45,399 nt of DNA from a bacterium (GTDB lineage Bacteria; Patescibacteriota; Gracilibacteria; Absconditabacterales; Absconditicoccaceae): NCBI GenBank assembly GCA_020631605.1, contig JAHDGZ010000005.1, positions 1 to 45,399 on the forward strand, given 5' to 3'. This document shows, piece after piece, positions 1-45,399 of this stretch. The notes below the pieces were generated by a model that did no database searches, had not been told where the DNA came from, and saw only the letters and a list, made by a program, of their open reading frames with translations. Each line of letters starts with the position of its first letter. Position 1 is the first letter of the stretch. The translations under genes were made by a program, and so were the position numbers.

Positions 1-1
1 G

Positions 2-550
2 ATGAAAAGTATCTGAAAATGACGTATTGTTCAGCTTGTCGAGTATGAGGTAGAGACTCCATCTTGAAAGAAACTCAGTTTTGAGAAAGCACGTCGTGCT
101 CCATGAGTAAGACTGATTATTGAAAATGACAATAAGCAGATCTTGCTAAACAAAGAATTTAGATATGAATTAGGATCTTCGGATTGGCGTCTTCCTTGAT
201 GAAAAGTAGTAGATTCTCTCGATGATTATCTAGCGATAATGGAAAGAGGTGATAGTATAGAAGACCATGTCATCACTGCAGCACAGAGAGAGTGACAAGA
301 GGAAGCAGGAATTGATGTTGTTGATGCTGAGATTATTGATAAATCAGTGTGCGGTGCAACTATGGAACGAGATCTATGGTATGTAAAAATAACAGATTTT
401 ACACTATTATCCAACTTGGAGTTGGAAGAATGAGAAGTGATAGATGACCATGGTTGGTTTAGTTATGCAGAGATACAAGCTATGTTGCTTTCGTGAGATG
501 TCAAAGAGTGACGTAGTGCTGCCGTTTTGATGAAAATAGTTTTTGGTTAA
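2..550 (+). CDS. Nudix hydrolase (ADP-ribose pyrophosphatase-like)
   Basis: Nudix enzymes cleave nucleoside diphosphates linked to another group, with Mg2+ held by the Nudix box. The core of the box, REGQEEAGI, lies near residues 96-104, with the upstream LPGGK glycines near residue 65. Several glycines here, including the one in REGQEE, are TGA codons. About 20 extra residues between the GG and the REx2EE part resemble ADP-ribose/NADH pyrophosphatase-like members. An ATG opens the frame at base 2, but the gene could begin left of the window, so the start is uncertain. It ends at TAA. The exact substrate cannot be read from sequence. Confidence 0.85.
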
Positions 551-693
551 TATCACTCATCGTTTTATAATGAAAAAGCTGGGAATATAGTGTTTTTCAC
601 TTTCTTCTCATACCACCATATCTATTGTAAAATAAACTCTTTTGCTGTAAGAGATCTCAGCATAGTGAACTATTACTTTCTTAGATACGTACT

Positions 694-1275
694 GTGAATC
701 ATACAATTATCTACACTAACAATAAACACTGATACGTGACAGTAAAAGATGGTAAGCTTTTATTGAAAATTCCACGTAAATTGAAATGACATAAGAAATT
801 TGAGGCTGTGTTGTTAGAGAAATGAAAACACTTGATCGAAAGAAAAAGAACTGAATGAAAGAGGAGAGAAGGAGATACTGCATGGATATTTGGGGAACAA
901 GTATCCCTTGTAGATTTGGGTCTGAAGACAGATTCTAGCGATCAAGAATTTCAGACTATTTTGAAGGGGATTCTTTCGGATTATTGTACTCCCATTATAG
1001 ATTACTATGCGAATCTCTTATGATACTCTTGGTCTGCACTGAGCATGAGAAGATTGCGTAGCAAGTGGTGAAGTTGCTCATCAAATCAAAACATTTCACT
1101 GAATCTAGATCTTGTTCATCTTCCTACGAGATTGGTGAGGTATGTTGTGATTCATGAGGTGTGCCACTTGAAACATAAACATCATCAACAGTCTTTTTGG
1201 GCAGAAGTAGAATGATTTTTCCCAGACTATAAACAGGTGAGAAAGGAACTTAAGGCTATTAGATTTTCTTACTAA
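694..1275 (+). CDS. YgjP-family (DUF45) zinc metallopeptidase
   Basis: About 193 residues. The C-terminal half carries the zinc signature HEVCHLKHKHH (His154, Glu155, His158, His164), giving HExxH plus a third His. It is preceded by RRLRSKWGSCSS, the hallmark of the YgjP/DUF45 (SprT/M48-like) family. Members are soluble predicted metalloproteases of poorly known role, sometimes next to restriction genes, although none is seen here. There is no ATG in the available frame after the TAG at 682, so GTG at 694 is taken as start. Several glycines are TGA codons. Confidence 0.85.
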
Positions 1276-1353
1276 TTTTGATGAGCGTAAAACTTGCTTA
1301 ATTTCCTACCATCTTTATAATAGGAAATATCCTTTTATTGTATCGCATACAAT

Positions 1354-1689
1354 ATGTTACGTGAACTTACCGTTGATAATTTTGAAACATCAATCGATTC
1401 AGGTGTTGCTTTAGTGGATTTTTATGCAGACTGGTGTGGTCCATGTAAGGTTTTGGGTAAACTGATGCCACATCTTGCTGAAAAGTTTGATGGTAAGGCA
1501 CTTATTGGAAAGGTTAATGTTGATCAACAACCTACACTTACTCAGAAGTTTTGAGTTTCTTCGATGCCAACGATCATCATGTTCAAAAACTGACAACCTG
1601 TAGAACAAATGAGATGATTGAGACCGCCACATGACTATGTAGATCTAGTAGAAAAATGGCTCTCCGATACTACTGAGACAAATTTATAA
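1354..1689 (+). CDS. trxA: Thioredoxin
   Basis: Cytosolic disulfide reductase of 111 residues, the usual thioredoxin length. The active site WCGPC is at residues 27-31, preceded by the VDFYADW strand. The cis-proline region reads GVSSMPTIIMF, in which the first Gly is TGA. Read with the standard code the protein would stop after 66 residues, just before the cis-Pro loop; with TGA as Gly it is complete, so this gene is a clean internal proof of recoding. It is a single gene with no thioredoxin reductase beside it. Confidence 0.95.
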
Positions 1690-1867
1690 CCCATTGCGTT
1701 AGTAGATACTGCCGCATTCTTTGTGTGAAGTGACTTATTTCTTTGTCGCAGTTTCTTGTTTCTTGAATTTCTTGTATATAAAATTTCTATTGTCAATGAT
1801 AGATTTTTGACATTTGATCTTTTTTTCCTACATTTTTTGTATTTATCCTGTTATATAGATTATACTA

Positions 1868-2278
1868 ATGTGAATGATGAAAGAATTCAAAGAATTTGCT
1901 ATCAAAGGTAACATGGTAGACATGGCAGTAGGTATTATTATTGGTTGAGCATTTGGTACAGTTATCAAATCTCTTGTAGATGATGTTATCATGCCTGTAG
2001 TTTCTGGAATATTCAAATTACCAGATTTTGCTAACTTGTTTGTAATCCTTTCAGGTGAAGGTGATTTCACTAGTGTGGAAGCAGCTCGTGAAGCTTGAGC
2101 TTCAGTGTTGGCATATGGATCATTCATCAACGCTTTGATCGCATTCTTGTTACTTGCATTTGCTGTATTTATGGTAATCAAATGAATCAACAAGATGAAG
2201 AGAGCTGAAGAAGAAGCTCCTGCTGGACCTTCAGAAATCGATCTATTGACTGAAATTAGAGATAATCTAAAAAAATAG
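1868..2278 (+). CDS. mscL: Large-conductance mechanosensitive channel MscL
   Basis: Pentameric inner-membrane safety valve that opens on hypo-osmotic shock. The protein has about 136 residues, with the N-terminal KEFKEFAIKGNMVDMAVG helix and TM1 (VGIIIGGAFGTVIKSLVDD), a short periplasmic loop, TM2 (INALIAFLLLAFAVFMV) and the charged C-terminal bundle ending LTEIRDNLKK. Two ATGs are in frame: 1868 (reads M-G-M-M-K, with the G as TGA) and 1874; either is possible. It ends at TAG and is followed by a clear intrinsic terminator. Confidence 0.95.
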
Positions 2279-2293
2279 GAATAGATTATTATA

Positions 2294-2712: not shown

Positions 2713-2732
2713 TTAGAGCTTCTATAGTTAGC

Positions 2733-2782: not shown

Positions 2783-3733
2783 TTATTGTACAAGCAAGAG
2801 ATTTACGATCAGATATCCTCAACCAATAACCACTAATCACAAGAATACATAACCAAGACTTTTTCCAATTCATTTGATGTTGTCTGGTGAATCTGGATTC
2901 ACCAACAGTTTATATCACTGCACAAGTATGATTATTAGAATCACAAAAGCTATCAGTCCTAGTGCCCAGTTAATTATTTCGAATATGATTCCTAAGAAGC
3001 CATCTGCTCACTGTGTTAATGATCCTGTTGCATTGGATCAAGTAGTGAGTGGATCATTGAGAATGTCTTCTCTTGTACCAAAAACAGCTTCTACTATTTG
3101 TTTTGCCGCTAAGATAACTAGTATTCATACCGTGTTTCGTATGATGATAGTAACGCTCTTTTTTTGTGCCTCTTCACTAGAAGAAAAAACGAATGAGATA
3201 ACACGACTCAGCAATATGACAAAGAGAATACCAATAACGAGATAGAGTGCTATTTTTAAGAGAGGATAGACAAGATTATCGTAAATGTTTCTGACAAAAT
3301 CTATTCATGAAAATTCACCATCAGCTAAGAATCATGTTGTTCAATCTGTACCAACCAATGTAATAACAAGATATCTTGCACTAAACATTATGAGGATCCC
3401 TACTACTCACCAAAGAAGTATTCTAGATCCCTTCGATACTGAATCTTCAGCATTGGAAAAAAACATTTGATAGAATCAAAAAATTGCTACTATTATACCT
3501 ACAATAATCATCAATGGAATAATAATATCTTGTGCTACATAGACGAGAATTCCTTGAATTCATTCTCCACTAACAAGACTTGTATCTCATGGCGTGGTTT
3601 GCTGTAAGTTATTGCTTATGTCTCCTAATGAGTTCTGTAGATCATCTTTAAAATTGTCATTGCTTGCTAACAAAATACTAGGCAAGACACAAACTAATGA
3701 TACGATCAGTGTAGTGACTATCTTTTTTATCAT
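2783..3733 (-). CDS. Multi-spanning T4SS-associated membrane protein with signal peptide
   Basis: 316 residues. It begins with a signal-like stretch (IKKIVTTLIVSLVCVLPSILLA) followed by about six to seven hydrophobic segments, e.g. DIIIPLMIIVGIIVAIFGFY and IALYLVIGILFVILLSRV. Last gene of the virB4 operon; its ATG overlaps the end of the upstream gene (ATGATAA). By position and topology it may be the VirB6/TrbL-like or pilin-like membrane part of a type IV secretion system, but no specific family motif was recognised. It contains many TGA glycines. Confidence 0.7.
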
Positions 3734-4671
3734 TTGGATTTTTGTGTGCTAAAAAAAAGTTTCATGATTGGTTGTATAATACTATCTATTAGTGGTAATA
3801 TTGGTCACTTTTTTAGTGACACATGAACTATGTACTTTGTTGCCACTAATCCATATGCGATGATATCAAATATCTTGCTACTCTCTGTGAGGTATGATCT
3901 AATAGATCAAAATAGTAGAAGAGCTATGATGATTCCAAGGATGCTGTATGAAACTAGTTGATGTCATTTCATGTCTTTTTCTTGTTGGTAATAGTTATGT
4001 AGGTCTTTGACACGTTGTGTATATTTTTTTTTGAGAAAGAGATAATCCCATCATGCCTGAACATATGACCATAGTTCTTCGGGATGCTGTATAAAACTTT
4101 TATTTATTTGTTGTTTTGTTGTGTTGGGTATGAGATCAATTCATGCAATGAGTGTGCTAACTCTGATAAGAATGAGAGTAATTGTCGCGATAGAAGTGAT
4201 GTTTGTAGGATCAATTATGGTGAGGATGATATAAAGTCCCCATCGTAAGAGAGATTCCTTTAGCCATCGATATGGTTGGTGAAAACGATGAATTTTGTAC
4301 CATAAATAGATGTTGTATCATGGTATAAAACTTTTTGCCATCATGTCTTTGTGTTGAATTCATTGTGTAGAACTCAGTAACTGTTTGTTGCTTGCTATAG
4401 CTATGGTTCATCATACTAGTATGAGAATGATGATTGCTACTGATACAAAACCTACTCGCTTAATCCATTCAATGTTTTTTGCAACTCTGATGAGCACAGT
4501 TGTAATATATAATAGTAGAAATCATATATTAATATATCCTAATTTGATATAACCAAAGACTTGTTCTTTGTCTTTTTGATCAAGATTGAAATTAGCCTTG
4601 TTTAAAAGATTACCTACAAGAGGAGCAAAGAAGTATAGTGAAGTGAAAGAGAGTAGTAGCTTTGGATTCAT
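3727..4671 (-). CDS. Membrane protein of the virB4 operon (unknown)
   Basis: 314 residues with hydrophobic segments near the N-terminus (LLLSFTSLYFFAPLVG, YINIGFLLLYITTVLI, VGFVSVAIIILILVG), in the middle and near the C-terminus, separated by a basic region with several aromatic residues. No family recognised. It starts 3 bases after the virB4 stop and overlaps the following gene by 7 bases, so it is translated in the same operon and is presumably a membrane subunit of the secretion channel (inference from context). It ends TGA-TAA, in which only TAA is the stop. Confidence 0.7.
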
Positions 4672-4674
4672 TAT

Positions 4675-6885
4675 TTATTTTCCATCAATAAAGTTCTTTT
4701 CTTCCTGAGATGCTAGTATTTTGACAGCGACATGTTGGCCTCATACAAACATTAATCATTCTCCTATTCAAGAAGCAACAAGTCTTTGTTTTTCTGCTTC
4801 TGATAATCATACCACCTCTTCGAGAGTTTTAATAGAAGACGTCGATTGTTTTAGTAGTAATTGCATACTTGCATTGGATACAATAGGTTTTCCGTAAGGA
4901 CTTCTAATCAGGTCTTCAATATCTTGTGTAATAGTAGTAATTCACAGTTGATATTTTCTTGCTCTTTTTGTTAATCCATAGAGGAAGTTTGCTGAGATGT
5001 CATTTTGTAAAAGAATCCATGCCTCATCACAAATAATAAGTCTAGGCTTTTTGTTTGCTCTTACTTCTGTCCAGATGAAATTCAGAATATTGTACATAGC
5101 AGGAGTTTTGAGTGCATCATCTAGATCTCTTATACTAAAAATCGTGAGTCTATCGTTGATATTTATATTGGTAAGGTTGTTGAAAATTTTTCCAAAGGTT
5201 CCTGATACATATTTACTTAATTTTAGTGCTAGTTCTTCTCATCATTCCATTCATTCAAGCACCTGCAGAAGGTCTTCCATGGTTGGTGTGTTATTTGGAT
5301 TATATTCTTTTTGTGTTAGCGTGATTCATTTGAGAGAGTAAGTGTTCTGGAGTGCTTTGTCCATTACAGCTTCATCTCTTGGAGATAGTTTTCCTAATAT
5401 GATGTTCATCAATCATAAAAGCTGAGATATTTGTGATCTCAATAAATCACCTTCCTGATAATCTATATCTTCTATAGCTGGTGGAAGATCAAAAGGGTTG
5501 ATATATTGTTGTGAGCTAGTTGCTACATTTATATATGTTCCTCATACCTTTTCTATGAGTGATTTATACTCATTTTCTGGATCAATGACGATGATGTCTA
5601 TTCCATTCAATAGATATCTTAGTATTTCTAATTTCACTGCAAAAGATTTACCAGCACCAGAAGTAGCAAGCACTACACTATTCATATTAGGTAGCTTGCT
5701 ATTGAATCTATCAAAAACTATCAGCCCTCACGTGTGTAAGTTAACCCCGTAGAGAATTCCTGTTTTGTGTATGATATCTTGTGAGATAAAGGGGAAACTA
5801 CCTGCTAATGACGAAGTTATTGTGCTTCTTGTGATTCCTAAGTTGTCAATGCATAGTGGCAAAGAACTAACTAAACCGTCATCCATTCTAAATGTTGCGG
5901 GTTTGGTTCTTAGACTTAATCACGCTAATTTTTGTTCAATTTTCTTACTCGATTCTCTTATTTTTTCTTCTTCTTGCTCATAGATGGTCATATACATCCC
6001 TGTTTCGAAGTATCTCTCTTCGTGGGTTGCTAGTTTCTGTCTTATCATTTCAACATCCTGATACTGTACCTGGACTTCTGTATCAAGTGTGATTCCTTTA
6101 GCTAGTGCATCATTTATTTCTGCCTTGAGCTGTGTAGACCTTTGTTTGAGTGTGGATTTTATTCTACTATCATCTTCAGGATAGATAAAAATGCTCAAGT
6201 CTCGTTTCCCATGATAGTCTAATATATCTCTTGTCCATAGCGCATCCATATAAGAAGGATAGCTATGAGTATAATATGTTTTCCCAAGTATTCAGGAAAT
6301 TCTAAAGGAGGTAGGTTTTACCTCCCAAAAAGACGGTGCAATATGAGTTTTAAAATCTTTGAGTATCGTGTTATAATGATTTTCTGTATCTTGAATAAAT
6401 GTTCTTAGCTGAGATGTGAGTTTGTCATCAGAGTACTCGTTATCAGGTAGATTTAATAGGTATTGTACTTGTTTACGCAAAGATAAGCTTTTTATCTTTT
6501 TGTTTTCTGTTTTGGGTGCTTTTTTTGTTTCTTGTCCCTCTTCTGTATTTTTTTCTGTCTTGATTGATTGTACCGTGTCCTTCACTTCGTCTTTTGGTGC
6601 TATCATGAATACCTTCGACACTAAGCGATCGATGAATCACATTGAATTTTTTGTAGCTGCTTTCTTTCTCTTATTTTTGTTATTGTTTGTCTTTTTTTCT
6701 TCTGATGGCATTTTTTTACTTTCTACTTTACTTTTTTTCTTTGCTGTATGGTCGTGTTGTACGGGAATGAGTTGTTTTACAAAACGCTCAAATCGATCTG
6801 CTGATTTCTCAGTGACAGACACGTTTTTGGCTTCATTTGTGCTACTTGGTATTTGTGTGTTTTGTTTTTTTGTTTCTTTCGCCAT
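4675..6885 (-). CDS. virB4: VirB4/TraC-family type IV secretion ATPase
   Basis: Cytoplasmic ATPase that powers pilus assembly and substrate transfer in type IV secretion. 736 residues. Residues 1 to about 90 are a low-complexity Lys/Glu/Asn-rich extension. A VirB4 N-terminal region follows (WTRDILDYHGKRDLSIFIYP). The ATPase domain has Walker A ATSGAGKS (Lys413), a DPENEY motif after it, and Walker B RLIICDEAW (Asp620-Glu621), with the later ITTITQDIEDL segment typical of VirB4. The standard code would break it into many pieces. It heads the operon with the two membrane genes. The Lys-rich head is not usual for the family. Confidence 0.92.
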
Positions 6886-8747: not shown

Positions 8748-9548
8748 TTATTTATTTCCTAAGAAATCAACTAGTTTTTTGTGAGATGCTGGTTCTCATA
8801 CAACACATCCATTGGCTCGAATATGGTTATTATCAGCAACTGAGTAATTAAGAGGCTTGCCATTTCCATCGGTGGTGGTAAGTCCTAATTCATTTAATGC
8901 AACTTGTCATGCGCAGAAGTCTCGTTTCCCCCAAGGCCTAAATCATCAGCAGGCTGAGAGATTTCATACTATGATCTGCACAATACTTCGACCCACTGTA
9001 TGATAACTCTTGATGCCAGATATCTTTGTCCCAGCCTTGTTCTCGTATATGTTATTCTCAAAGTTTACACCAATATCTTGAGGTCTTGAAATTTGAAATA
9101 CTGGTTCTGCTTTGATTTTTCTTTCCAGCTTGTTGTTATTTAGATATACTCATTTCCCCTTTTGTGCGAAAAGAAGGATGTTTTTTTCTGGAAAATATGA
9201 TATTCATAATTCAGGTTCACCATTTTTGTATCTACCTAGAAGAATCCCATATTTATCATCGCCATTAGAAAAATTCATGGTACCATCTATTGGATCTACT
9301 ATCCATATTGTTTTGTTTCGATTAAATTCTTGTTCCTTTTCTGCTGTTTCTTCAGTAAGAATTTGATCTTCTGGATAGTGTTCTTTGAGATAGCCAATAA
9401 TATACGCGTCAACTGCTAAGTCAGCTTTAGTAAGATAGTCAGCTCCTGTTCATGAATCTCATTTCATAGATACTTCAATCCCTTCTTTTTTTATTTCCTG
9501 GATTATTTCTCAGGCTTTTTTCATCATATCAATTAGTTCTTTACTCAT
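8748..9548 (-). CDS. Inositol monophosphatase family protein
   Basis: Mg2+-dependent sugar-phosphate phosphatase fold, 266 residues. The metal site reads ILTEE (motif with the metal-binding Glu) and WIVDPIDGTMNFSNG, the family signature. The C-terminal motif is RDFCAGQVALNE in place of the common WDxAAG. Possible substrates are inositol phosphate, 3'-phosphoadenosine 5'-phosphate or fructose bisphosphate; sequence alone does not decide. It starts inside the end of the dihydrouridine synthase gene (ATGAGTAA overlap), so the two are translationally coupled. Confidence 0.9.
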
Positions 9549-12115: not shown

Positions 12116-13870
12116 ATGACTCTTGCAGAAGATATACTAGATTGATTGGACATTGTGGATGTGATAGGCCGTTATATGGCTCTCCAACGTGCATGAAGCA
12201 ATTATAAGTGACTATGTCCATTTCATGGAGAAAAGACGCCATCTTTTGTTGTGTCTCCACAAAAACAAATTTTCAAGTGTTTCTGATGTGGTGAGTGATG
12301 AGACGCAATAACGTTCGTTAAAAAAATTGATAATGTAGATTTTATTGATGCAGCAAAAATTCTAGCAAAGGACGCTGGGGTAGATATGTCCAAATTTGAA
12401 AATGTTGTGTTTGATAAAAAAGAAGAAGAACGAAAAGACAGACTCAAGCGCTTGAACTCAGTTGTGACTAAATACTTTACCCAACAACTTAAAAATAGCC
12501 CAGAAGCAATTGATTACCTTAAAAACAAAAGAAAACTTTCTCCTGAAATAGTGAAAAAGTTTAGTATTTGATATGCACCTGATTCATATTATGATATATT
12601 ACAGTTTTTGAAAAAACAGTGATATAAAGATGATGAATTGCAGCAATGATCATTGGCAAAACGTAGTCATTCATCTGAACAATATGCCTTTTTCCGTAAT
12701 AGAATTATTTTCCCTATTCGAGATCATATGGGAAATGTTATTTGATTCGGTTGACGTGCGATGAAAGATGATCAACAACCAAAGTATGTTAATACAACGG
12801 ATACAACTGTCTATGATAAATCTCATGTCTTGTATGGCCTCAATTTTGTGAAAAAAGGTATCAAGAAACATGATTTTGTTGCAGTAGTAGAATGATATAT
12901 GGATGTCATTGCTATGTCTCGTTTGGGCTATGATAATGCTGTGGCGACGTGTTGAACATCGCTAACAGATGGTCATTTTAAGCTACTTAAAAGGTATACA
13001 GAACATGTGTATCTACTTTTTGATCAAGATAAAGCATGATTTGAGGCGACTAAGAGAGCCTTGAAGGTTGCTTATAAATACGATGTTTTTCCGGCAGTTT
13101 TAGTATTGCCAGAATGAGATTTTAAGGACTTGGATGATGCAGCAAATGCATTTCAGAACATAAAAGCAGATACTGATGGAGTATCTGTTGTGGATACTAT
13201 GATTGAGAACAAGATTGATGGGCTGAGTTATGTGATGGACAAATTGATGACCACGTATGATCTTACTAGTCCTGTAGATAAGAAGAGATTGTTAGATGAA
13301 ATTATGAGTATTCTTGTGTTTGTTACTAATGTAGCTATTCAAGATCACTATCTTCATGTTGTTTCTGAGAAACTTAGTATGAGCAAGCAAGTACTAGAAG
13401 CTCAGTTGAAACAATATATTAGAAAAGAATGAAGACTGTTGAGAAGGGAAATGAGTAAAATGCAAGCTGATAATGAGGCTGACTATAAGCCAGATGCAGA
13501 AATGCTACTTGTATCTTTACTGAGATCAACTAGTACACTGAGTGGAAAAACTCAAGAATCATTTGAATCTCTCGTGTGATTTATCAAGAAGATCAGTAGT
13601 CACATGACTGAATGACTCTTGTATCAACGATCACATGATCAGTTGGATATGAGCCAAGTAGCTGAATTAGAGCAATTGCGATTGCGATGGGAGAGCGAAC
13701 TGGAGAGTTACGACTCTGATGAAACTAAGTTACTTTTCATTTTCAAAACAATCAGACAAGAACTGCAACGTTACCTCCAATATGTTCTTAAGTATTGAAC
13801 ATTGACACAAGAAGAAAAAATGCAACTACTTCAAGAGAATAAGGATTTGCCACTGTTGCTTTGATCATAG
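12116..13870 (+). CDS. dnaG: DNA primase DnaG
   Basis: Makes RNA primers at the replication fork. 584 residues, near the usual 580-600. Residues 34-58 form the CHC2 zinc finger (Cys34, His37 in CPFH; Cys55 and Cys58 in CFGCGEGGD). The catalytic core follows with FFRNRIIFPI, the PKYVNTTDT motif and the TOPRIM segment VAVVEGYMDVIAM near residue 258, then LLFDQDKAG. The C-terminal region is the helical DnaB-binding domain. At least ten glycines, including those in CFGCG and VEGYMD, are TGA. It ends 7 bases before the convergent kinase-like gene. Confidence 0.97.
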
Positions 13871-17329: not shown

Positions 17330-17378
17330 CTAATTAGTATTTCAGTAGTTTTTTATCCATTAGTTTTTGTTTACTCGT

Positions 17379-18440
17379 ATGTTAGAAAGTGCACTTTCAT
17401 TGATTCAAAAATATGATGCCTTGCAAAAAAAATTGTATGACGCAGAATGATTATCTCATGAAGATTATGCGAAACTTAGTAAAGAGATCAGTAAACTTAA
17501 AGAGTGATACGAGATAGCAGTTAGTTATCGTGATGCAATGCAAGGTTATGAAGAAGCAAAACATATGATGGCCAATGCGGAGGATGAAGAAATGATTATG
17601 CTAGCGAAAGAGGAGTATAAGGTCTTAGACGAACAGATCCCTCTATTAGAAGAGTCATTGAAAATTGCACTCTTGCCTAAGGACCCCAATGATGATAAAA
17701 ATGTATTTATAGAAATCAGACCAGCAGCTTGAGGGAATGAATCTAGTCTTTTTTCTCAAGAAATATTGAGATCATATATGATGTATTCTCAAGCTAAATG
17801 ATGGAAAACAGAAATTGTTGATCAACAAGATAATGATTCATGATGAATAAAGTTAGCGATCATCCGTGTTTCATGAGACTCTGTTTATTCACTGATGAAA
17901 TATGAAAGTGGTGTACATAGGGTACAGAGAATACCAGAGACAGAAAGCCAGTGAAGAGTTCATACTTCAACAGTTACTGTTGCGATCATGCCAGAGGTAG
18001 ATGATGTAGATTTTCATTTTGATGCCAAAGAAGTAGAAATGGATACGTTTGCTGCATCATCTGCAGGTGGTCAAAATGCAAACAAGAATCAAACGTGAGT
18101 TAGATTGCGTCATATCCCATCAGGAATTATAGTTACTATCGCTGATAGTAAATCGCAAATGCAAAACAAAGAAAAAGCTTTTGTTATCCTCAAATCGAAA
18201 CTCTATCAGGCAGAAATAGATAAACAGCATGCAGAACAAAAAGATCTCAGATGAAGTCAAATCTGAACAGGAGACAGATCAGAGAAGATAAGAACATATA
18301 ATTTTCCTCAAGATAGAGTTACTGATCATCGTATCAAAGAGTCTCGATCTAATATTGCATGAATCCTCAACGGAGACTTAGAAGATATACTCAATAAGTT
18401 GATTATTGCTGATCAAACAGCAAAACTATCCTCATTGTAA
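17379..18440 (+). CDS. prfA: Peptide chain release factor 1
   Basis: Reads UAA and UAG and releases the finished peptide. 353 residues. The stop-codon recognition tripeptide is of the PxT (RF1) type: PET at residues 186-188 in [18 protein letters not shown]2 would have SPF. The catalytic GGQ is at 230-232 in [12 protein letters not shown], here coded GGT-GGT-CAA. RF1 as the release factor fits a genome where UGA is not a stop. Gly codons elsewhere in the gene include many TGA. The gene lies 50 bases after the solute-binding protein. Confidence 0.97.
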
Positions 18441-19928: not shown

Positions 19929-19936
19929 GTAGGATT

Positions 19937-20008
19937 TGGTCCCTCCAGGAATCGAACCTGGATTTCGCCCTCCGCAAAGGCGCGTCCTATCCGTTGAACG
20001 AAGGGACC
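19937..20008 (-). tRNA. tRNA-Arg (anticodon GCG)
   Basis: 72 bases; full cloverleaf. Acceptor GGTCCCT pairs AGGGACC; D-stem GTTC/GGAC; anticodon stem CGCCT/GGGCG with loop TTGCGGA; T-stem CCAGG/CCTGG with TTCGATT. The discriminator base is A and CCA is not encoded. The arginine identity positions A20 and C35 are present. Anticodon GCG would read CGC and CGU; most bacteria use ACG (edited to ICG) instead. A terminator follows. Confidence 0.93.
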
Positions 20009-20144
20009 ATGTAGCTATTAGGGGTATCTATTTCGCTGGAATATACAAGTTGTTTTTTGAAGACGAAGGGGTATATCTGTAGTAATGTATTCTGGTAGAT
20101 GGTGCCAGTCTCTCTTCTTTATACTACAAGTAGCTACTAGATTC

Positions 20145-22499: not shown

Positions 22500-24791
22500 T
22501 TATTCTGCCCATTTGATACATTGCTCTAGAGTTATTTCAGCTGCTTTTTCTTTTCGTTCTTTGGGTAGCTTTATATTTTTTCTTCCTACTTTGAGAAATG
22601 CTCATCGACGTCATTTTTGAATTGAGTACTTTTTTCATTCATGTTCTCGTTGATTAATCATCTTCTCTTTGTCTTTCTTCTGTTTCTCTTTGATTAGTAC
22701 AAGTGCTCTTTCAAATGTAACTTCATAAGGATCATCATCAGGGAATTCTTCAGTCTTTTTCAATGAAGCAAAAGTACTATCTCGTTTAACATATGGACCA
22801 AATCTTCCCAGAGAAGCAGTTACCTTTTTTCCTTCATGATCACCCAGATGTCTAGGTAGCTTGAAGCATTCCAATGCTTCTTCTAATGTGATAGTTTCTA
22901 TTGATTTACCACCTCTAATAGATGCAAACTTTTTGTCTTCATCTTCACTATCTCCTATCTGCACAAGAGGTCAGTATCTACCAATTCTTGCAATGATAGG
23001 TTTTCCTGATACGGGATCTGTTCCTATTGCCCTTTCTCCTGAGGCTCTTTCAGCGGTCTCATCTATTGTTGTTACTTGAGAGTGAAATGGTTTGTAAAAT
23101 TTGTGAAGCATTGCAGTCCATTCAATCTTACCATGCGCTATATTATCAAATTCTTCTTCTACATTTGCTGTAAAGCTATAGTCTACTATTTTTGGGAAAT
23201 TTTGTACTAAGAAATCTGTTACAACAAGACCTATATCTGTAGGGAATAATTTACGTTTTTCAGCTCATACATTTTTTGAAATAGTTTCTTCCTTCAATCC
23301 TTTGCTAGATAGTGATATTACTGTAAGATCTGTAGGAGTCCCTGGTCTGTCTTCAAGCACAACATATCATCTTCTTTGAACAGTATTGATGGTGGGTGCG
23401 TAAGTTGACGGACGACCTATTCATTCTTTTTCAAGCTGCTTCACTAAACTAGCTTCAGTGTATCTTGGGGGATGACGATCAACAGTTTCTGTCGCTGTGA
23501 TGTTTTTATAATGGATCACATCTCATTTGCTCAATGCTGGTAAGAGATTTTTTGTTATTGTTGTATCTTGTTCATCATCTGAACTTTCTTGGTAGAGAGT
23601 AATAAATCATGGGAAAGTAATAGTTTCTCACTCAGCTATCAATTTTGTTTTGTGGTTTGATACCAGGATACTAGCTTTGGTTTTTGTTCCCGTAGCTGGA
23701 GACATTTGACTAGCTAGTGTTCTTTTTCGGATAAGTTCATAGAGTCTTTTTTGTTGTGCATCAGCACCAGCACTCATTTTGAAGAAATCTGTAGGTCTGA
23801 TACATTCGTGTGCTTCTTGTGCGTTAGCACTTTTTCCTTTGTAGAATGTAGGGTTAGAATACTCAGCTCCCCATTTTTCTGTAATAAGTTTGGTTGCTTG
23901 GTTCTGTGCAGTTTTTGAGAGATTAACTGAGTCAGTTCTCATATAGGTGATATGTCCAGCTTCATAGAGTTTTTGTGCCACACGCATCGTTTGAGCCACG
24001 CTTGATCCTATCTTCCTACTTGCTTCTTGTTGAAGAGTAGATGTGGTGAAAGGAGCCGATGGCCTTTTTTTGAGTGGCTTATCTTCCACTTTTTCTACGG
24101 TGAGTTCACTGGTTTCTATGGCTTTGAGAAAATCATGAGCTTTTTCTTGTTCCTTTATTTTTTGTGCTGTAGAAGCTTTGAAGTTTGCCTTGTCTTTAAG
24201 AAGTTCTGCGTCTATTTTGAAAGGTCTTTTGGCGATAAATTTTTGTATTTCTCTTTCCCTATCTACAATCAATCTAACCGCAACGGATTGGACTCTACCG
24301 GCACTTAGTCAACCTTTTATTTTTTTCCATAAGACTGGAGAAAGTTCAAATCATACTAGACGATCGAGTATTCTTCTTGCTTGTTGTGCATTGATGAGGT
24401 TTGTATCCAAGAAGCGAGGATTCTGAATTGCTGCTTCTAATGCGGGTTTAGTAATTTCATGGAAAGTAATTCTTGCTGTTTTATCTATATCTAGTTTGAG
24501 AGCATTGGCAACATGCCAACCTATTGCTTCTCCTTCACGATCTTCATCCGTCGCTATCCATACCTTGTCTGCTGCTTTTGCTGCCTTACGTAGTGCTGAA
24601 ACATTTTTTTTCTTGTCTGCACTAATTTCGTATGTAGGCTTGAAATCGTTTTCTATGTCTATACCCATGTTTTTTTTAACGAGATCCGAGATGTGACCAT
24701 AAGAAGCCATCACTTCATAATCCTTTCCGAGATATTTTTGGATTGTTTTGCATTTAGCTGGAGACTCAACTATGACAAGATTTTTGGACAT
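22500..24791 (-). CDS. topA: DNA topoisomerase I
   Basis: Relaxes negative supercoils by single-strand passage. 763 residues. TOPRIM N-terminus KNLVIVESPAKCKTIQKYLG, with the acidic trio in WIATDEDREGEAIGWHV. The active-site Tyr283 is in HITYMRTDSVNLS. The body ends with three repeats of the type GRYGPLVQIG, GRFGPYVKR and GRRGAFLKVG; the zinc-finger cysteine repeats usual in E. coli TopA are absent, as in many bacteria. Several TGA glycines. It heads a - strand run with DUF212 and the ftsQ-like gene. Confidence 0.97.
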
Positions 24792-27277: not shown

Positions 27278-27439
27278 AATTGTAACTCATTTAAAAATCA
27301 TGATTGATATTATGATGAGTACTGTATAGTGAACTAATCTATTTTTTGCAAATTACTGTTCTTTTTGTTGATCTAATCTAGAATTTTTACTATAGATTGC
27401 TATTGTTTGTACCAGCTCACTTTAGTCTTCAATATTGTT

Positions 27440-28939
27440 ATGATTCAATGGATACTTTACAACCAACTTCATCATGATTATGTGTTTGATGAGGTTGAGC
27501 GTATTCTTGTTCTTCATTCTTGTTCTTCTATCTCGACTAAGACTTCTGCATGAAGTATTTCTTTGAATATCTATAGTAAAGTAGTTTCTTATGCTGCTTG
27601 AAAGGCTTTTGTTGATTCTGCTAAAGACGGTGATTTTCTTTTGAGTCAGAGTCGAGAGGAATCTCTCTTTGACTATTGCTCTCTCTATGCTTGTACATAT
27701 CTTGTAGTGATGGATTCATGCGAGGCGTATGTTTCTCATCGTTTGCACAGATTAAAAAAAACTCTTGGTGATAGATGAATCACTCTTGATATCAGACCAA
27801 ATACTCAATTTCTTGTTTCTTATAATGAATGTAGTCAAACATTTGATGAACCTCCTGTGATGGAGTCCTTTTATCGTTGGATGAGAAAAAAAACTGACAT
27901 CCTCATGGATGACGATAAACCACAGGGGTGAAAACGAAATTATGATAAGGAGAACAGAAAGTTTGATAGAACATTTACAGATGTTACACATCTAGGTTTT
28001 TGAGAATCACTATTTTGGCAAGAAGCATGTGAGTATTATCAAGAAGATATTGCTCTATGGGGAAAAGAACTACAACCATACATCCCAGTTACTCGTCAAG
28101 AATCCTTGCTGTTACTTGATTTTTTTGTCCATCAGCATCTTGATAGATTTGGTGAACTTGAAGATGCTATGTATACGACTAGTGATTTTGTTTATCACTC
28201 ATTGCTTAGTATTCCTCTAAACTTTTGACTGCTTACTCCCGAGGAAGTGATTGTAGCTATCGAGAGTGCTGACTCTGCTATCAACAACAAAGAATGATGT
28301 ATTCGTCAAATTTTGGGATGGAGAGAATATATGAATCAGTGGTTTCATTATTATAAAGATGAAATTTATGATCAAAATTTTTTTAATCATACAAGAGATT
28401 TGCCTTATCGATTTTGGAAACCTGATAAAGCGCCAGAGACTGTCAAAAAAATGACATGTATGTCACATGTGTTAGATAAAGTAGACAGATTATGATATTC
28501 TCATCATATCGAGCGTCTTATGATCATAGGTAATTTTTGTTTGTTGGTATGATATAATCCTCATCATATAAATAAGCGATTTTGGGAACAATATGCAGAT
28601 GCTTTTGAACGAGTAGTAACACCTAATGTATTGGGTATGTCACAGTATGCTGATGGTTGAAAACTTGCTACTAAGCCCTACGTGGCAAGTGCTAACTATG
28701 TCAACAAAATGAGTAATTACTGTAAGTGATGTGCTTATAATCCAAAAGAAAAATATGGAGATAACGCATGTCCTTTGAACTATCTGTATCGAAAATTTGT
28801 GGATACGAATAAAGAGACTTTTGTTAAAGGTAGGCAATCATTTATCATCAATCATCTTAAAAAAATTGATAGTGCATTGATTGATAAGCAGACAGATGAT
28901 TTTATTATATCGTTAGATAGAGATGCAAAAGACAGCTAA
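27440..28939 (+). CDS. Iron-sulfur photolyase/cryptochrome (FeS-BCP/CryPro family)
   Basis: 499 residues. Prokaryotic (6-4) photolyases of this class bind FAD and a 4Fe-4S cluster and repair UV lesions with light. Cluster ligands are visible at Cys340, Cys428, Cys431 and Cys444; their spacings (88, 3 and 13) equal those of Agrobacterium PhrB (350, 438, 441, 454). The FAD-binding region has GGKRNYDKENRK and GWREYMNQW. In the segment NYCKGCAYNPKEKYGDNACP a glycine beside Cys431 is TGA. First gene of a tight operon with overlapping ends. I cannot see from sequence which lesion it repairs. Confidence 0.93.
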
Positions 28940-29162: not shown

Positions 29163-29345
29163 ATGAAAAAAAAGTGACGAAAAGGGAATAAGTCATCATT
29201 GCCTTCAAAGATTTGTGTTGTTTGCTGACGTAGTTTTTCGCGACGTAAAAAACGAGAAAAATGTTGGGAAGATATACGCTATTGTAGTGCTGATTGTAGA
29301 TCAAAGAAAACAATTTTAGATTCTAGTATATCTCATGCAGTGTAA
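29163..29345 (+). CDS. DUF2256 zinc-ribbon-like protein
   Basis: 60 residues. The pattern ICVVCGRSFSRRKKREKCWEDIRYCSADC (Cys18, Cys21, Cys34, Cys41, Cys45) is the DUF2256 signature of short basic cysteine proteins. DUF2256 genes often lie beside photolyase/cryptochrome genes, so its position fits. It is probably a metal-binding helper of unknown action. The next gene's ATG (29335) overlaps its end by 11 bases. Confidence 0.9.
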
Positions 29346-30495
29346 GCAGAAGGACGATATTATTGATTTCCTTAGTAAATTTGATGCCCAGGGATACTGA
29401 AAATCACGTAACTATATAGATGGATGAGTGTCACAATTGTCCCCTTATATCACTCATGGCATTATCTCAACCAAGGAATGTATGCAGCAGATATTGTCTA
29501 GGTATACTATCAAAGAAGCAGAGAAATTTTTGATGGAATTGATGCGAAAAGAGTTTTTTCTACAGGTACAAAAGAATTATGGTAATGAGTTTCTTTCACT
29601 TCCTGTTCGAGATGATAAAACCTGAGTGACTAAGAAAAAATTATTAGCCACATCATTAGCTAACCATACAACTCATACTGATCGAGTTAATAGTATTATC
29701 ACACAGATGACGTGAGTTTGATGGTTACACAATCATCAGCGTATGTGGTTGGCAAGCTGGTGTTGTCATTGGGCAAAGTTAGATTGGAAATTGTTGGCAG
29801 ACCGAACATATTATCACTTTCTAGATTGAGAATTGTCTGCAAATCATCTTAGTCGACAATGGGTCAATAGTACTTTTGCCAACAAGGCATATATGATGAA
29901 TGAAGAGAATCTTCAAAAATATCGACCATGAATGGTTGATGAGGATTTGAGGTGAACATATGAAGACGTTTCTTCTTTTCTTTTTGATGAGGATCGTGAG
30001 AGTGCTTACCGAAAAGAGGAGGATGTCTCTTTTTCTTTCACTACACCTTTGGATACATTGGATGTTTTTGATAGCCACTTGTACGAATGAAAGAGTGCTG
30101 TTCGTCTACTTACTCCATGGAGATTAGATGAAGATTTGCTTTGAGATGATGTGTACACTATTGTCCTTTTGGATGAGACATTTACTCAATCTCATCCTTG
30201 GTCTCAGCAACGTATAGATTTTGTTAGATCATATACAGAAAAATATGCTGTTCCTTTTGTTATATGATCATATCAGACTAGTATAGATGATTTGTTGTCT
30301 CAGTGAGTTGATGTATCTATCGATGAAAGACGAGATCCAATCTATCGCGAAGTTCAGAAAAGCTTTTTGTGAGAGCCATGAGTTTCATGTATTCCATATC
30401 CATGGATACATACTTCTCATGGAGATGAGCCAATTATGAAGTTTTTTAAGTACCGAAATAGTAGTAAGCATTTTATCAAAAAGCTGTGACAATAA
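29335..30495 (+). CDS. Photolyase-like FAD-binding protein with C-terminal alpha/beta domain
   Basis: 386 residues. It begins directly with photolyase FAD-domain sequence: GGVSQLSPYITHGIIS (about residue 26), then GWLHNHQRMWLASW and YYHFLDGELSANHLSRQWV with STFANKAY. There is no N-terminal antenna (Rossmann) domain. After a linker (TPWRLDED) residues 245-370 look like an alpha/beta domain (VYTIVLLDETFTQSHPWSQQRIDFVRSY), as if the two photolyase domains are in swapped order. It is in a known photolyase-DUF2256 gene group. Repair versus signalling role is unknown. Its stop overlaps the arfB ATG by one base. Confidence 0.85.
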
Positions 30496-30932
30496 TGTCC
30501 TATCGATATGGGAAGAAGAAGGTGGATGGTTTTATAAAGCAAATTCGACACAAGGAGATCCTATTATCTTTTGCTAAATCCTCATGACCATGATGACAGA
30601 AGATTAATAAGATTGAAACAAAGGTCCAATTATCTTGGGATATTCATCAATCAGCTATCTTGCCACAGCCGTTTTTGCAGAGGTGCATCGAAAGAAATAG
30701 TAAGTATATTACTGATGAGTGAATCTTGAGAATAGATACATCAGTGCATAGAACGCAAAAAGCTAATAAAGAACAGACTTATAAAAAATTTGTTAAAATT
30801 GTTAAATTTGCTTTTGCTGAGAAAGCTGTTAGAAAAAAAACCAAGCCCCCGAAACGAGCTGTATATAAGCGTATTGCAGAAAAGAAAAGAAAGTCAAAGA
30901 GGAGAAATCTGAGAAAGAGAATAGTGGGTTAG
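30495..30932 (+). CDS. arfB: Alternative ribosome-rescue factor B (peptidyl-tRNA hydrolase, YaeJ/ICT1 type)
   Basis: 145 residues. ArfB enters stalled ribosomes that lack a codon in the A site and hydrolyses the peptidyl-tRNA. The GGQ motif is at residues 33-35 in SGPGGQKINKIET, followed by VQLSWDI; the basic C-terminal tail (KKTKPPKRAVYKRIAEKKRK) is the part that fits the mRNA entry channel. All three glycines of GPGGQ are TGA codons (30585-30599). ATG 30495 overlaps the photolyase stop by one base, so it is translationally coupled to the photolyase gene. Distinct from the window's RF1. Confidence 0.93.
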
Positions 30933-30941: not shown

Positions 30942-31580
30942 TTATGAAATGACGATTTTGGATTTCATCTTCTCTCTTTTTCACATCATTTCTATGAAGG
31001 CTTGTGCGATAGCTTTTCTTGAGATGGTTCTGAAAACTGATGGGCTATAGTTTTCGAAGAGAGTAGTTTTGTACGCAATTTTTTCATTGTTATTTAATAC
31101 TATGGCTTTTATGACTGTTCGTGGAAGCGAGGACTTTTCTAATAAAGATTCTTCTTTTTCTTTATCATCTGCCACGTCTCCTAGAAAATACTCGTATGCA
31201 TACTGAAAAGGAAATGGTAGTGAACGACCATGGTGCGTGCCTGATGAACTCATCACCATATAGTGTTTGCAATGGTGATCACTGACTCATCGAGCTGAAA
31301 TGACTGCTTCTGTGACACGAGAGTAGATATCTGTTGGTTTGGCATGAAAAAATCATACTGAAACTGTATGAATGAGAATCTCTATTCATGTATTTAGTAG
31401 TTTTTTGATGTCTTTTTTGTTTGTCCCATCTCATTGTAAGACGTTTATTTTATGTGCCATATCTGATTCTATTTTTGGTGGATTTCTCACGAGCGTGCTT
31501 ATCGTGTGTCACTCATTGAGACCTTGTATAATAATCTCTTTTCCTATACGTCATGATCATCAGATGATTCATATATGCAT
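30942..31580 (-). CDS. NAD(P)-binding protein (NmrA/atypical SDR-like)
   Basis: 212 residues. The N-terminus MHIGIIGGSGRIGKEIIIQGLNEGHTISTLVRNP is a classical Rossmann turn; the GxxGxxG glycines are residues 7, 10 and 13, the first two coded TGA. Then VLQGDGTN, and HYMVMSSSGTHHG, as in NmrA-type sugar/flavin-handling reductases. Substrate unknown. The gene is short for the family. Its stop lies 9 bases from arfB, convergent. ATG 31580 is used; about 200 bases to the next gene show nothing definite. Confidence 0.8.
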
Positions 31581-31778
31581 GATATATGTTATAATAAAGT
31601 TGTTCTCTTTTGCCTTCTTCTTGGTGTTATACTCATAGTTTGTCAGGTTATTATATAATAATCGTGTTATAATTTGCAAAAAAAATACTATTCGACTATA
31701 TTGTTGGGCGGAATGATCATGAACCCAGTATAAACTAATTAGTCTGAAATCCCTTTTATTGTCTTAGTATGTAGATCT

Positions 31779-33219: not shown

Positions 33220-33311
33220 GATGTTTTGTGAACTGAATTTTTTCTTGTCACTATAAGTATTTTATACAGTACGTAACTCAAGTTGATGTTGTTTTTTTAA
33301 ATAAAAAAAAT

Positions 33312-33383
33312 CAGGGTATGAGGGATTTGAACCCACGACACGCGGCTTTGGAGACCGCTGCTCTACCCCTGAGCTAATACCCT
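33312..33383 (-). tRNA. tRNA-Trp (anticodon CCA)
   Basis: 72 bases; acceptor AGGGTAT/ATACCCT, D-stem GCTC/GAGC, anticodon stem GCGGT/GCCGC with loop CTCCAAA, T-stem GTGGG/CCCTC region. Discriminator G; CCA not encoded. The 5' end lies 18 bases past the RNase P RNA 3' end, on the same strand, and a T8 run follows the 3' end. CCA reads only UGG, consistent with UGA belonging to another tRNA. Confidence 0.93.
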
Positions 33384-33399
33384 AACCTGATTTCTTTAA

Positions 33400-41222: not shown

Positions 41223-41456
41223 GCTTGTGTGTAATGACTAAAAAACAACCAAAAATTGGTCTCTCTTCAAGCAAGATAGTGAACTGTGCTAATTTTGCAA
41301 GAACAATGACTATTTAGTTCGATTTTTGCATGCTATATATATGTCTGAGATAAGTCAATGTTCTACTGTTGTTTGTTGCTCTTTTTTTGTATGATCAGAG
41401 CTGAATATGTATACTTGAATCAAGTAATTTATTGCACCCTAAAGATACTCACATTG

Positions 41457-44400
41457 ATGAATAGAGAACAATGTATCCAACAACTAGCATTTACTTTTGA
41501 GACAAACCCTGGGTTACAGGATAATATTTCGCAATTGATGAATCGTGCTCGAGAGTCTAGTAAGGAGACATGTTTAGAGTTTTTTGACTTTTCGATCAGT
41601 AGGGTGAAGATTGTAGTAGAGTCATTTGATTGAACTATCCCTCCAGAGCCAGGTCCACTTCCAGAGGTAGTAGCTGATACAGGAGCTACACACGCTGCAC
41701 CTGATGTGATAGAGTGAGCAACATCGTGGATGGCATCAATGAATGCCTGAAGCATGGAATGACTATTGAAGCGAGTGTGATTGTTTGTCGGTTGAATTGT
41801 GCTGATTCTTATTATTCGATACTTGATCAAATATCTCTCAAGGTTTTTCTACGATGTGTTGAATGCACATAGGATCATGTACATGAAAGTTATTCTCCCT
41901 AGAGGAGATAGTAAGTCTGATCGTGATCAGCAAAAAGAAATTGCCAAGGATATGAATGAAAAAATTGGAAGAATGACACAAGTCTTTACTAATCTACATA
42001 AACTTGGTGAGTTGTCTGTATCTGAGAAAATCCTGTATACATTTTTTGATAAACCTAAAGTTACTCTCATACTTCATTTCGAGAAATGACAGTTGTATTT
42101 TGTTGTAGGAACTTATCCAGAATATAAAGATATTTTAGAAGGTGCTATCTCTGCTCAATATGCAGATGCATCTATAGAGACGATTCCAAAGCCTCGTATG
42201 TTTTCAAAAAAACATTATGAAATTATACCAATGCAGCCAGAGAAGGATTCAGTATATCCTATTAGAGTATTCAAACAATCTCCCGATGATCCATTGAATA
42301 ATGTGATTGATAGTATTGGAAAAGTACCTCGTAAGGATACTTTTAGTATTGTGATTCCTATCAAACCTGTAGGTGATGGTTTTAATAAAAAAGCAAAAGC
42401 ATTTGCAGACGCATTGTATAAGCAAGATGACTCTGCTGTTGAGAGTGTTGCACGGTGGAAATATCTGCTTATGCCATGGAAATTTATTGGCTTTCTTGTG
42501 AAGTGACCATCTGAGTCATTATTGTCAAAGTGAGGAGATAAATGATGAGGATATGTTCGTATGGTAAAAGCAGAGGAGGATGCATTGAATGTTATAGGTG
42601 AGGAAGCTACTTATCAAGCGTTCAAATCAGGAATTTTGATTATAAGTTCATCAGATTCCAAACAAGAATGTACTGATAACGTGTATAATATGATTGGGAC
42701 ATTCAATGTCTATACGCATGAATACAATAACTGATTAGATCATCCTGAACGGTTGTCTGATGTTTTTGGTAGTATCATGAAACCATTGTGGAAATTTGCT
42801 GCCATGTTTCACCTGCCAAGTTTTTTCTTCAAACACAATATCTTTAGTGTGAATGAGTTAACCTCATTATTTCACTTTCCTGATGGAATTTATAACCGTG
42901 CTCCTATTATTGAGTGGGCTGAATATAAGACTTTGGCACCACCAGATAACCTTCCAGAATTCAAAGAAGATAATGGGTATGTCATGAGTGGAATTGTAGC
43001 TGAATCGTTTAAGAAATGAAAGATATCAGAGATACTCAAAGATTATGAAGGAGATCGATCAGTGGGAGAAAAAATAGTAGAAGAAAAAGAATTGTTTCCT
43101 ATTGAGAAATTTACTCAGAAGCAATTAGAGTGAAAAGAAATCATCGAGCAAGATGGGAAGAAGATGGTAGAATGAATCAAGAAAAAGAAAGTACGTGGAT
43201 ATAAACTCTACAAAGACTGAGTCTTGCTGTGAGTGAATATTTATAGAAACTCTTTCAAACCGGTCTATATGAAAAGAGATGATAGGACGAGACATCACTA
43301 TGTTATTGGAAAATCTGGTACAGGTAAATCTGTGTATCTACAATTTCTTGCTAGACAAGATGTCTGGAATGGAGATGGAATCTGCTTGATTGATCCTCAT
43401 GGAGACCTGGCAGAAGAGATGCTTGAATACATACCTAAAGAGAGAGCTAAGGATGTCATCTATTTTGATGCTGGAAATGAGGATAGACCGATGGGTCTTA
43501 ATCTCTATGAAATTAATTCAGTAGATGAAGCCGATAGAACGGTAAATGACGCAACGGAGATGTTCATCAAGATGTTTGGTCCAGAAATTTTTGGTCCACG
43601 TATACAAGAGTACTTTAAGTTTGGAAGTTTGACTCTCTTGGAAGACTTTGAGGATAGACCAACTATTCTGGATGTTCCTCGTTTGTTTACTGATGATGCA
43701 TTCAGAGAGTATAAAACCAAGAAGGTTAAAAATCCTGTAGTGAAAAACTTCTGGGAAAAAACATATAATTCTATGGGAGATAGAGAAAAACAAGAAATCA
43801 TTCCGTACTTTACCTCTAAGTTTGTCTCGTTTAATACCAATAGACTGATTAGAAATATCATCTGACAAACCAAATCTGCCTTCACTTTTGAGGATGTGAT
43901 GAACAATCAGAAGATACTATTGATTAACCTCAGTAAAGGAAAGATTGGTGAGATGAATGCACAGTTGCTTGGTATGATTATTGTATCAAAAATTTACAAT
44001 GCAGCAATGGCTAGACAAAATATTGCCAAGAAGGACCGTAAGGATTTTTATCTTTACGTGGATGAGTTCCAAAACTTTGTCACTGATACATTTGCAGATA
44101 TCTTATCTGAGGCAAGAAAATATAGACTTAACTTAGTGATGGCTCACCAGTATATTGCTCAGCTAGATTCTAATGCAGGAAGTAATATAGGAGAAGGAAA
44201 GAGTAAGGTAAGAGATGCTGTTTTTGGTAATGTGTGAACAATGCAATCTTTTAAGATTGGTGCTAATGATGCAGAGTTTATGGAGAAGGAATATGCGCCG
44301 GTGTTGGGTGCTCAAGATATAGTCTGAATAGCGAACTATAAGACGTATACTAAATTGAATATAGACAATAGTACTACTCGTGTCTTTAGTATGAACAGTA

Positions 44401-44726
44401 TCTTCTCAAAAGATTATAGGAACAAAAAAATAGCCTGAATTCTCCAGGAATACAGTGCTAAAAAATATGGAAGAAAGAGAGAGTTTGTAGATGCAGAGAT
44501 AGAGGCTAGACTAGGAATTAGTGTTGATGAGTCTGCACTAGATTGATTGGATGCAGCTAGTTGAGATTGATCAGAGAATCTGACAGTTGATACTGATGAG
44601 AACAATGTAGAAGTTCCTGGTACTCAGGATATTGCTAACAAACAAACAGTACAAAAGATAACTCCAGCTGACAAATCTAGTGATGATTTAGTGGAAGAAA
44701 AACCTTCACAGGAAGATTGAGCGTAG
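41457..44726 (+). CDS. Type IV secretion coupling ATPase (VirD4/TraD-type) with large N-terminal region
   Basis: 1089 residues. A membrane helix near 108-125 (LFVGGIVLILIIRYLIKYL) separates a short N-terminal part from a region of about 450 residues of unknown type. The motor domain follows: Walker A IGKSGTGKS (Lys624), CLIDPHGDLAEEML, Walker B LYVDEFQNF (Asp869, Glu870), and ANDAEFMEKEYAPVLG, as in VirD4/TraG/HerA-like coupling proteins that bring DNA or protein to a type IV channel. ATG 41457 is chosen; a longer frame opens at 41358 but its first 33 residues are Cys-rich and look non-coding. Thirty or so glycines are TGA. Confidence 0.88.
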
Positions 44727-44754
44727 CCTGTTTATTGTATTGAGATGACTTGTT

Positions 44755-45399
44755 ATGAAACTGCGTTATAAGCAGCATGAAACAACACCACCCACTATTG
44801 AAAATTTTGCTGAATCATTGTGATGATTGCATACATCAGTGGAAAAATGATTACTCTTGTCTACGGGTTTTCCGAATAGAGAAGTTTTTGAGAATATTAA
44901 AAAATACCTCAATCCTGAGCTTCAATCATGGGAGCAGTGGTCTCTGTTTGTTAACAAAAGTATCGTTTTAGCGAACAAGATCGGTGTTGAACCGAATGAC
45001 TTATTGTGGCTGATTTCGTTTGAATCATATACAGTCAAAAATCCTAGGAGGTATTTTGATACTGGTTATCATAATGCTGTATGAGACATAGCTTGATTGC
45101 TTTCGTTTAGAGAAAGTTGAGTTAAAATAGAAGCATTTGCTATTTTATTATGAAAGGAGTCAAAGTCAGATGTAGAATTGGAGGACATAGTATGATTGGA
45201 TGCATTAAAGCAGTTGGATTTTATTGAGGCCTATCTTCAACATTGGATAGATATCAAAAACCTCACAACGCCTATTTCTTTTTCTGATTTGTATTTACTC
45301 ATTTGGTCTCCTAAATATCTTGGTGTACCAGATGAAGAAGTAGTGGCTGCATGAGAATGATCCGACTATATTGCTGATATTGATAAACAAATTGTTGCT
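44755..45399 (+). CDS. Lysozyme/lytic-transglycosylase-like protein (partial)
   Basis: First 215 residues; runs off the right edge. VLANKIGVEPNDLLWLISFESYT resembles the start of a phage-type lytic transglycosylase/lysozyme fold with Glu in ISFES as a candidate acid. Later QLDFIEAYLQHWIDI and LYLLIWSPKYLG match the spacing of such proteins. It follows the coupling ATPase by 28 bases, so it may open peptidoglycan for the secretion machine (inference). Several TGA glycines. Confidence 0.7.

Follow-up and report, generated by a model that had tools for sequence, protein, structure and literature searches.

The genetic code of the Absconditabacteria and their relatives is known to differ from the standard bacterial code. 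NCBI translation table 25 (SR1/Gracilibacteria) reads UGA as glycine and keeps CGA and CGG as arginine. Proteomics of a BD1-5/SN-2 bacterium yielded 97 peptides unique to a UGA-Gly database versus three unique to a UGA-Trp database (PMC4032931), and the glycine assignment has been restated for Vampirococcus (PMC8080830) and for groundwater Gracilibacteria (PMC11452946). For Absconditabacteria, Shulgin and Eddy reported in 2021 that, besides UGA as glycine, CGA and CGG are read as tryptophan (PMC8629427), and those codons were therefore tested here. A survey of 4-bp anticodon stems likewise describes CGG and CGA as tryptophan codons in Absconditabacterales, with a 5-bp anticodon stem in all of its tRNA(CCG) (PMC13092985). 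Here, we examine the genetic code of contig JAHDGZ010000005.1 of assembly GCA_020631605.1 (Absconditabacterales; Absconditicoccaceae), analysed over positions 1 to 45,399 (45,399 nt, hereafter the window). Both reassignments considered are already published in relatives; the usual code table covers the UGA one alone.

We consider it about 95% probable, from the sequence comparisons below, that the source bacterium has two codon reassignments: UGA would stand for glycine, and CGA, and by inference CGG, for tryptophan. An earlier note on the window had named its code as table 25. This was right for TGA; CGA, and probably CGG, is best read as tryptophan, given the positions of CGA in tryptophan columns, its interchange with TGG and tRNAs of tryptophan type. 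The genome has in common with table 25 UGA as glycine, a tRNA-Gly(UCA), the apparent lack of release factor 2 (RF2), the retention of release factor 1 (RF1) and TAA and TAG as stops. It differs in that CGA matches tryptophan, as CGG probably does.

TGA as a glycine codon

Non-overlapping open reading frames (ORFs) of at least 50 amino acids were taken from the whole window under a table 25 reading, with TAA and TAG as the only stops. The resulting 54 ORFs (14,434 codons) comprised 35 with a TAA end, 18 with a TAG end and one running off the window. The earlier note had counted 48 coding sequences (33 TAA, 15 TAG) and noted that none ended in TGA, an argument that is partly circular because ORFs defined by table 25 cannot end in TGA. 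As the lack of such endings is built into the reading, other controls were used, namely frame lengths, Markov sequences and homology. The ORFs held 385 in-frame TGA, 100 CGA, eight CGG and 140 TGG codons, and TGA was the commonest of the glycine codons, ahead of GGA (228), GGT (199), GGG (59) and GGC (26).

1–45399, no strand, whole window: stops TAA/TAG; TGA read as Gly and CGA (by inference CGG) as Trp, from codon counts in 54 ORFs

Frames open for at least 150 codons numbered 53 with TAA and TAG as stops (longest, 1,148 codons) versus 17 when TGA was added as a stop (longest, 226). When TAG or TAA was the stop freed in its place, there were 22 or 24 such frames. Fifty first-order Markov sequences read with TAA and TAG stops had a mean of 7.0 and a maximum of 13, the longest frame being 272 codons.

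The gene topA gave the most detailed view of the residues that TGA and CGA face.

22500–24791, minus strand, topA: 12 TGA, mostly at Gly columns; five CGA (conserved Trp column, one; aromatic column, one; variable columns, three)

With TGA, CGA and CGG masked as X, TopA was aligned to 39 homologs of its own phylum that use the standard code. Glycine made up 321 of the 369 residues aligned to the 12 TGA columns, and tryptophan one; column 719 was the one that was not glycine-rich. In a comparison with the best 80 of 586 public named records, which are largely Bacteroidetes and include no Absconditabacteria or Gracilibacteria, the TGA columns held 745 glycines, the next most frequent residue being serine (28). 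Of the 23 other family genomes searched, 21 also have TGA within their TopA match and two gave no match; outside the family, TGA occurs within the TopA matches of genomes G175 and G177. The best named matches of the family TopA, among those 80 records, were Bacteroidetes sequences with up to 56% identity, and a horizontal transfer of topA is possible on these similarities.

Pfam scores were compared with TGA translated as glycine or as tryptophan, these two residues alone being scored and others being judged by the column counts. Ten proteins were chosen: DnaG, RF1, Dus, thioredoxin, GreA, TopA, inositol monophosphatase, MscL, HlyIII and the AI-2E transporter. The best family score was higher with glycine in all ten. 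Changing glycine to tryptophan lowered the score from 384.2 to 353.2 bits for TopA and from 124.5 to 92.7 for AI-2E, and just from 143.9 to 140.4 for MscL; the Toprim domain of TopA scored 79.7 either way. Better family scores with tryptophan, which the earlier note had named as evidence that would speak against glycine, did not occur. The individual glycine positions that it had cited are present (lower-case g for TGA) in thioredoxin (FgVSSMPT), DnaG (KCFgCGEgg) and sortase (LLFgH), as are TGA codons in SecG (three), in the GreA frame (eight) and in VirB4 (15). In addition, seven of the nine TGA of an iron–sulfur (FeS)-type photolyase that lie within PDB alignments face glycine in 8ijy, in PhrB or in both. 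Two of the genes scored are listed here.

12116–13870, plus strand, dnaG primase: 20 TGA, including zinc-finger glycines; five CGA
8748–9548, minus strand, inositol-monophosphatase family protein: 10 TGA and four CGA; score up with CGA as Trp

The termination and decoding genes were sought in the whole genome (G000; 1.096 Mb, 51 contigs, 86.8% complete, 36 tRNA matches). A prfB model search gave no match above the cut-off in this genome; the sole match, below the cut-off, was the window's own prfA. Across 40 genomes, prfB was found above the cut-off in none of the 24 of the window's family versus 14 of the 16 others, the two exceptions being G175 and G177. Two of the 23 other family genomes gave no prfB-model match at all, even below the cut-off. 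Against this, the genome is 86.8% complete, and a gap could account for the missing RF2, although none of the other 23 family genomes searched had a match above the cut-off either.

17367–18440, plus strand, prfA, release factor 1: Pfam PCRF 213.9 bits, RF-1 118.4; 12 TGA and one CGA
30486–30932, plus strand, small RF-1-domain protein: both glycines of GGQ written TGA

The small RF-1-domain protein is presumably ArfB-like. With the GGQ glycines written as TGA, this termination-like factor would itself depend on TGA as a sense codon.

The glycine tRNA for UGA that the earlier note expected elsewhere in the genome has a candidate. A single tRNA(UCA) was present among the 36 tRNA matches (G000:C2:33942-34015; L033:143-216), labelled SeC by ARAGORN. 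Its bases G1:C72, C2:G71, G3:C70 and U73 are those given as glycine identity criteria in PMC8629427, and its body is ordinary, 74 nt in length with an acceptor stem of 7 bp.

Three other accounts of the internal TGA codons were weighed against these data. UGA as tryptophan, as in Mycoplasma, is the most widespread bacterial change of UGA (199 species in Entomoplasmatales and Mycoplasmatales versus 21 with UGA as glycine, according to Table 1 of PMC8629427); in the window, however, the Pfam scores, the lone tryptophan in the TopA columns and the glycine identity bases of tRNA(UCA) led us to reject it, and we regard it as extremely improbable. The ARAGORN label of that tRNA is all that speaks for selenocysteine or programmed readthrough. 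A total of 385 TGA in 54 ORFs, mostly at glycine columns where tested, and the ordinary shape and glycine identity of tRNA(UCA) are hard to reconcile with it; it was rejected on these grounds, no search for selenocysteine machinery having been made, and we give it next to no credence. Sequencing error or gene decay would also leave TGA within frames, and we found no support for it. It was rejected, as scarcely credible, on the frame-length controls, in which freeing TGA alone strongly lengthened frames, and on the TGA shared by the TopA of the family genomes, G175 and G177. TGA is thereby confirmed, as far as sequence can confirm it, to be a sense codon in the window and to stand for glycine: the claim of the earlier note that it is glycine throughout was borne out by the TopA columns, the Pfam scores, tRNA(UCA) and the missing RF2.

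CGA and CGG codons and their tRNAs

Residue 355 of TopA, written CGA, faces tryptophan in 34 and arginine in five of the 39 standard-code homologs, and, in the comparison with the best 80 named records, tryptophan in 68 and arginine in 10. All five CGA sites of TopA pooled gave 93 residues (W 36, Y 11, F 11, I 8, R 5 and others). When 17 family TopAs were compared, the window's included, CGA or CGG filled 23 of 85 conserved-Trp cells and none of 391 conserved-Arg cells. In relatives, CGG occurred four times at conserved-Trp columns of TopA and was also found opposite TGG and CGA in photolyases.

Two photolyase genes of the window are rich in CGA.

27407–28939, plus strand, photolyase related to PhrB (PDB 4dja) and 8ijy, FeS-type: six CGA
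29335–30495, plus strand, short photolyase-like protein: nine CGA, nine TGG and 15 TGA

In the masked FeS-type protein aligned to 8ijy and PhrB, CGA faces tryptophan at four of six sites, phenylalanine at two and arginine at none, one of the six being covered by 8ijy alone. Five CGA of the short photolyase lie within PDB alignments, and those at residues 71 and 174 face tryptophan in all four chains shown. Interchange among family members was counted as ordered pairs. For the FeS-type photolyase (five members), the partners of CGA and CGG were CGA (51), TGG (44), CGG (3), F (14), Y (7), L (5), I (4), K (1), D (1) and gaps (18), with no arginine codon. For the short photolyase (three members), they were TGG (20), CGA (12), TGA (3), E (2), A (2), P (2) and F (1). 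In the short photolyase of L260 (G151), TGA stands where the window has CGA at columns 117 and 197, the third member having TGG at 117 and CGA at 197; these are possibly changes from tryptophan to glycine. The usual order in photolyases is an antenna domain followed by the FAD (flavin adenine dinucleotide) domain. The short photolyase is unlike this, with its Pfam FAD-binding match near the N-terminus (65–186) and some 200 residues after it. A single-sequence structure prediction (mean predicted local distance difference test score, pLDDT, of 39.8) was too poor to judge the domain order and was not used.

The tryptophanyl-tRNA synthetase gene trpS, a single match in the genome (G000:C26:10394-11362), has one CGA that faces tryptophan in the three PDB synthetase chains shown. 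Pfam scoring of 10 proteins chosen from 28 listed ORFs gave a higher best score in nine with CGA and CGG as tryptophan, for example 39.0 to 48.8 bits for the photolyase and 86.3 to 95.7 for DPRP; sortase rose just from 80.6 to 81.2.

Several observations weigh against tryptophan at these codons. In TopA, the CGA sites 670, 715 and 746 are variable and 729 faces Phe, Tyr or Trp, and the relative L076 has CGA where 51 records have glutamine. CGA at residue 92 of the short photolyase faces arginine in two near-identical chains and tryptophan and leucine in the others; residue 117 faces Ile/Leu and residue 157 Phe/Phe/Tyr/Trp. A second CGA of trpS faces histidine or glutamate, and the four TGA of this gene lie at varying sites with glycine in some chains alone. 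DnaG (DNAG_N) lost 2.0 bits with CGA as tryptophan (138.6 to 136.6), and the weak side matches NmrA and TrkA_N of the ORF at 30942–31679 scored slightly lower. None of the eight CGG of the window was aligned to a standard-code homolog, so that the reading of CGG as tryptophan draws on tRNA(CCG) and on the relatives.

The tRNA genes are consistent with a divided CGN box. Two of them lie in the window.

33311–33384, minus strand, tRNA-Trp(CCA), for TGG: ARAGORN; anticodon stem drawn with five pairs, the last U-G
19936–20009, minus strand, tRNA-Arg(GCG), for CGC/CGT: ARAGORN; A73, and A20 read from the printed sequence

Elsewhere in the genome, tRNA(UCG) (C26:33584-33655) has G1:U72, G73 and U20, and tRNA(CCG) (C10:5221-5293) has A1:U72, G73 and U20; both are of tryptophan type, without A20. 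The anticodon stem of tRNA(CCG) was drawn with five pairs, as in the Absconditabacterales of PMC13092985, where the statement is made for the clade. A pattern search for tRNA(UCG) in 117 genomes of the class gave a match in 97; 30 loci were fetched, and ARAGORN and a parser yielded 26 parsed UCG tRNAs. Nine of these came from f1, the family of the window, whose own genome is among them; all nine have G73 without A20, as does none of the 17 from other families. The latter comprised 16 with A20 (two of them with G73) and one with C20 and A73; several are near-identical and from one family, and are not independent. Six of the 15 f1 genomes in the sample gave no call, five having no match and one (G152) a match that was not parsed as a tRNA. 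Comparison of the genome's tRNA(UCG) with its nearest tRNAs placed tRNA-Gln(UUG) best, with a score of 27.0 that is too weak for a claim of origin.

Taken together as a mechanism, RF2 would be absent and RF1 would terminate at UAA and UAG, and tRNA(UCA), with its glycine identity bases, would insert glycine at UGA. CGA, and probably CGG, would be read as tryptophan by tRNA(UCG) and tRNA(CCG) through their tryptophan-type identity (G73, no A20). Arginine would be supplied by tRNA(GCG) at CGC and CGU and by tRNA(UCU) and tRNA(CCU) at AGA and AGG, leaving the CGN box split into CGY for arginine and CGR for tryptophan. Charging by the synthetases, the decoding ranges of the tRNAs and a restriction at U34 that would keep the glycine tRNA off UGG are steps that we infer; the codon-to-column matches, the tRNA gene sequences and the lack of an RF2 match above the cut-off in the genome were observed directly. 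The scheme agrees with that described for Absconditabacteria in PMC8629427, which has the same reassignments, the same tRNAs (GCG for CGU/CGC, UCG and CCG for CGA/CGG) and the same tryptophan identity rules (G73 and not A20). The combination of codon readings thus points to Absconditabacteria as the group of the bacterium.

A plain table 25 code, with TGA as glycine and CGA and CGG still arginine, is what published work on Gracilibacteria uses (code 25 in PMC11452946), and G177 of family f92 fits it, with CGA mostly on Arg/Lys columns; G205 of that family has an arginine-type tRNA(UCG). In the window's family, however, CGA and CGG lie on tryptophan columns, interchange with TGG and do not occur in the conserved-Arg columns of TopA, and the parsed tRNA(UCG) have G73 without A20. 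We rejected plain table 25 on the three codon observations and consider it very unlikely for this bacterium.

Codon usage and code states in the class

CGA reached 69.3 per 10,000 codons in the window ORFs (100/14,434) and 57.4 in ORFs taken from eight further stretches of this genome (241/41,970). In PMC8629427, all Absconditabacteria species are placed below 37 per 10,000, a ceiling from Pfam alignments with which the figure for Pfam-aligned window codons alone compares on similar terms (69.3; 35/5,054; 95% interval 48–96). Of the tryptophan codons, CGA and CGG together account for 44% in the window, compared with 42% in those eight stretches. One species in that survey has CGA 30, CGG 24 and UGG 35 per 10,000, so that in the most advanced species described there the combined share is larger than here.

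A plain UGA-glycine state probably exists in the same class. In the TopA of G177 (L247, family f92, outside the window's family), compared with the named records, TGA lies on glycine columns and CGA faces arginine 135 times and lysine 50 times. G205 (L230, also f92) has an arginine-type tRNA(UCG), so that two code states are probably present in one class, f92 and f1 differing in CGR.

Among the other genes of the window are type IV secretion-like genes at 2783–6885 and 41286–44726, with a TrbC/VirB2-type pilin match, a TraG P-loop/VirB4-like ATPase and a weak match to TrwB/TraG-D coupling proteins.

Meaning for annotation and for codon change

Annotation with table 25 would place arginine where tryptophan is probable at about 0.63–0.75% of codons (263/41,970 in the other stretches; 108/14,434 in the window). 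In the window, this would mis-assign some 108 residues (100 CGA and eight CGG), and the effect would weigh most in tryptophan-rich proteins such as the photolyases.

More tentatively, and with slightly less than even confidence, we suggest that no species of the 2021 survey uses CGA for tryptophan as often as this genome does, and that, as a conserved tryptophan of the tryptophanyl-tRNA synthetase is itself written CGA, the change may be built into its own charging enzyme. The class would then hold at least two states side by side, UGA as glycine alone (G177, f92) and UGA as glycine plus CGR as tryptophan (f1), which may form a natural series for the takeover of a sense codon. The class offers neighbouring code states in which to study how a sense codon changes its meaning.

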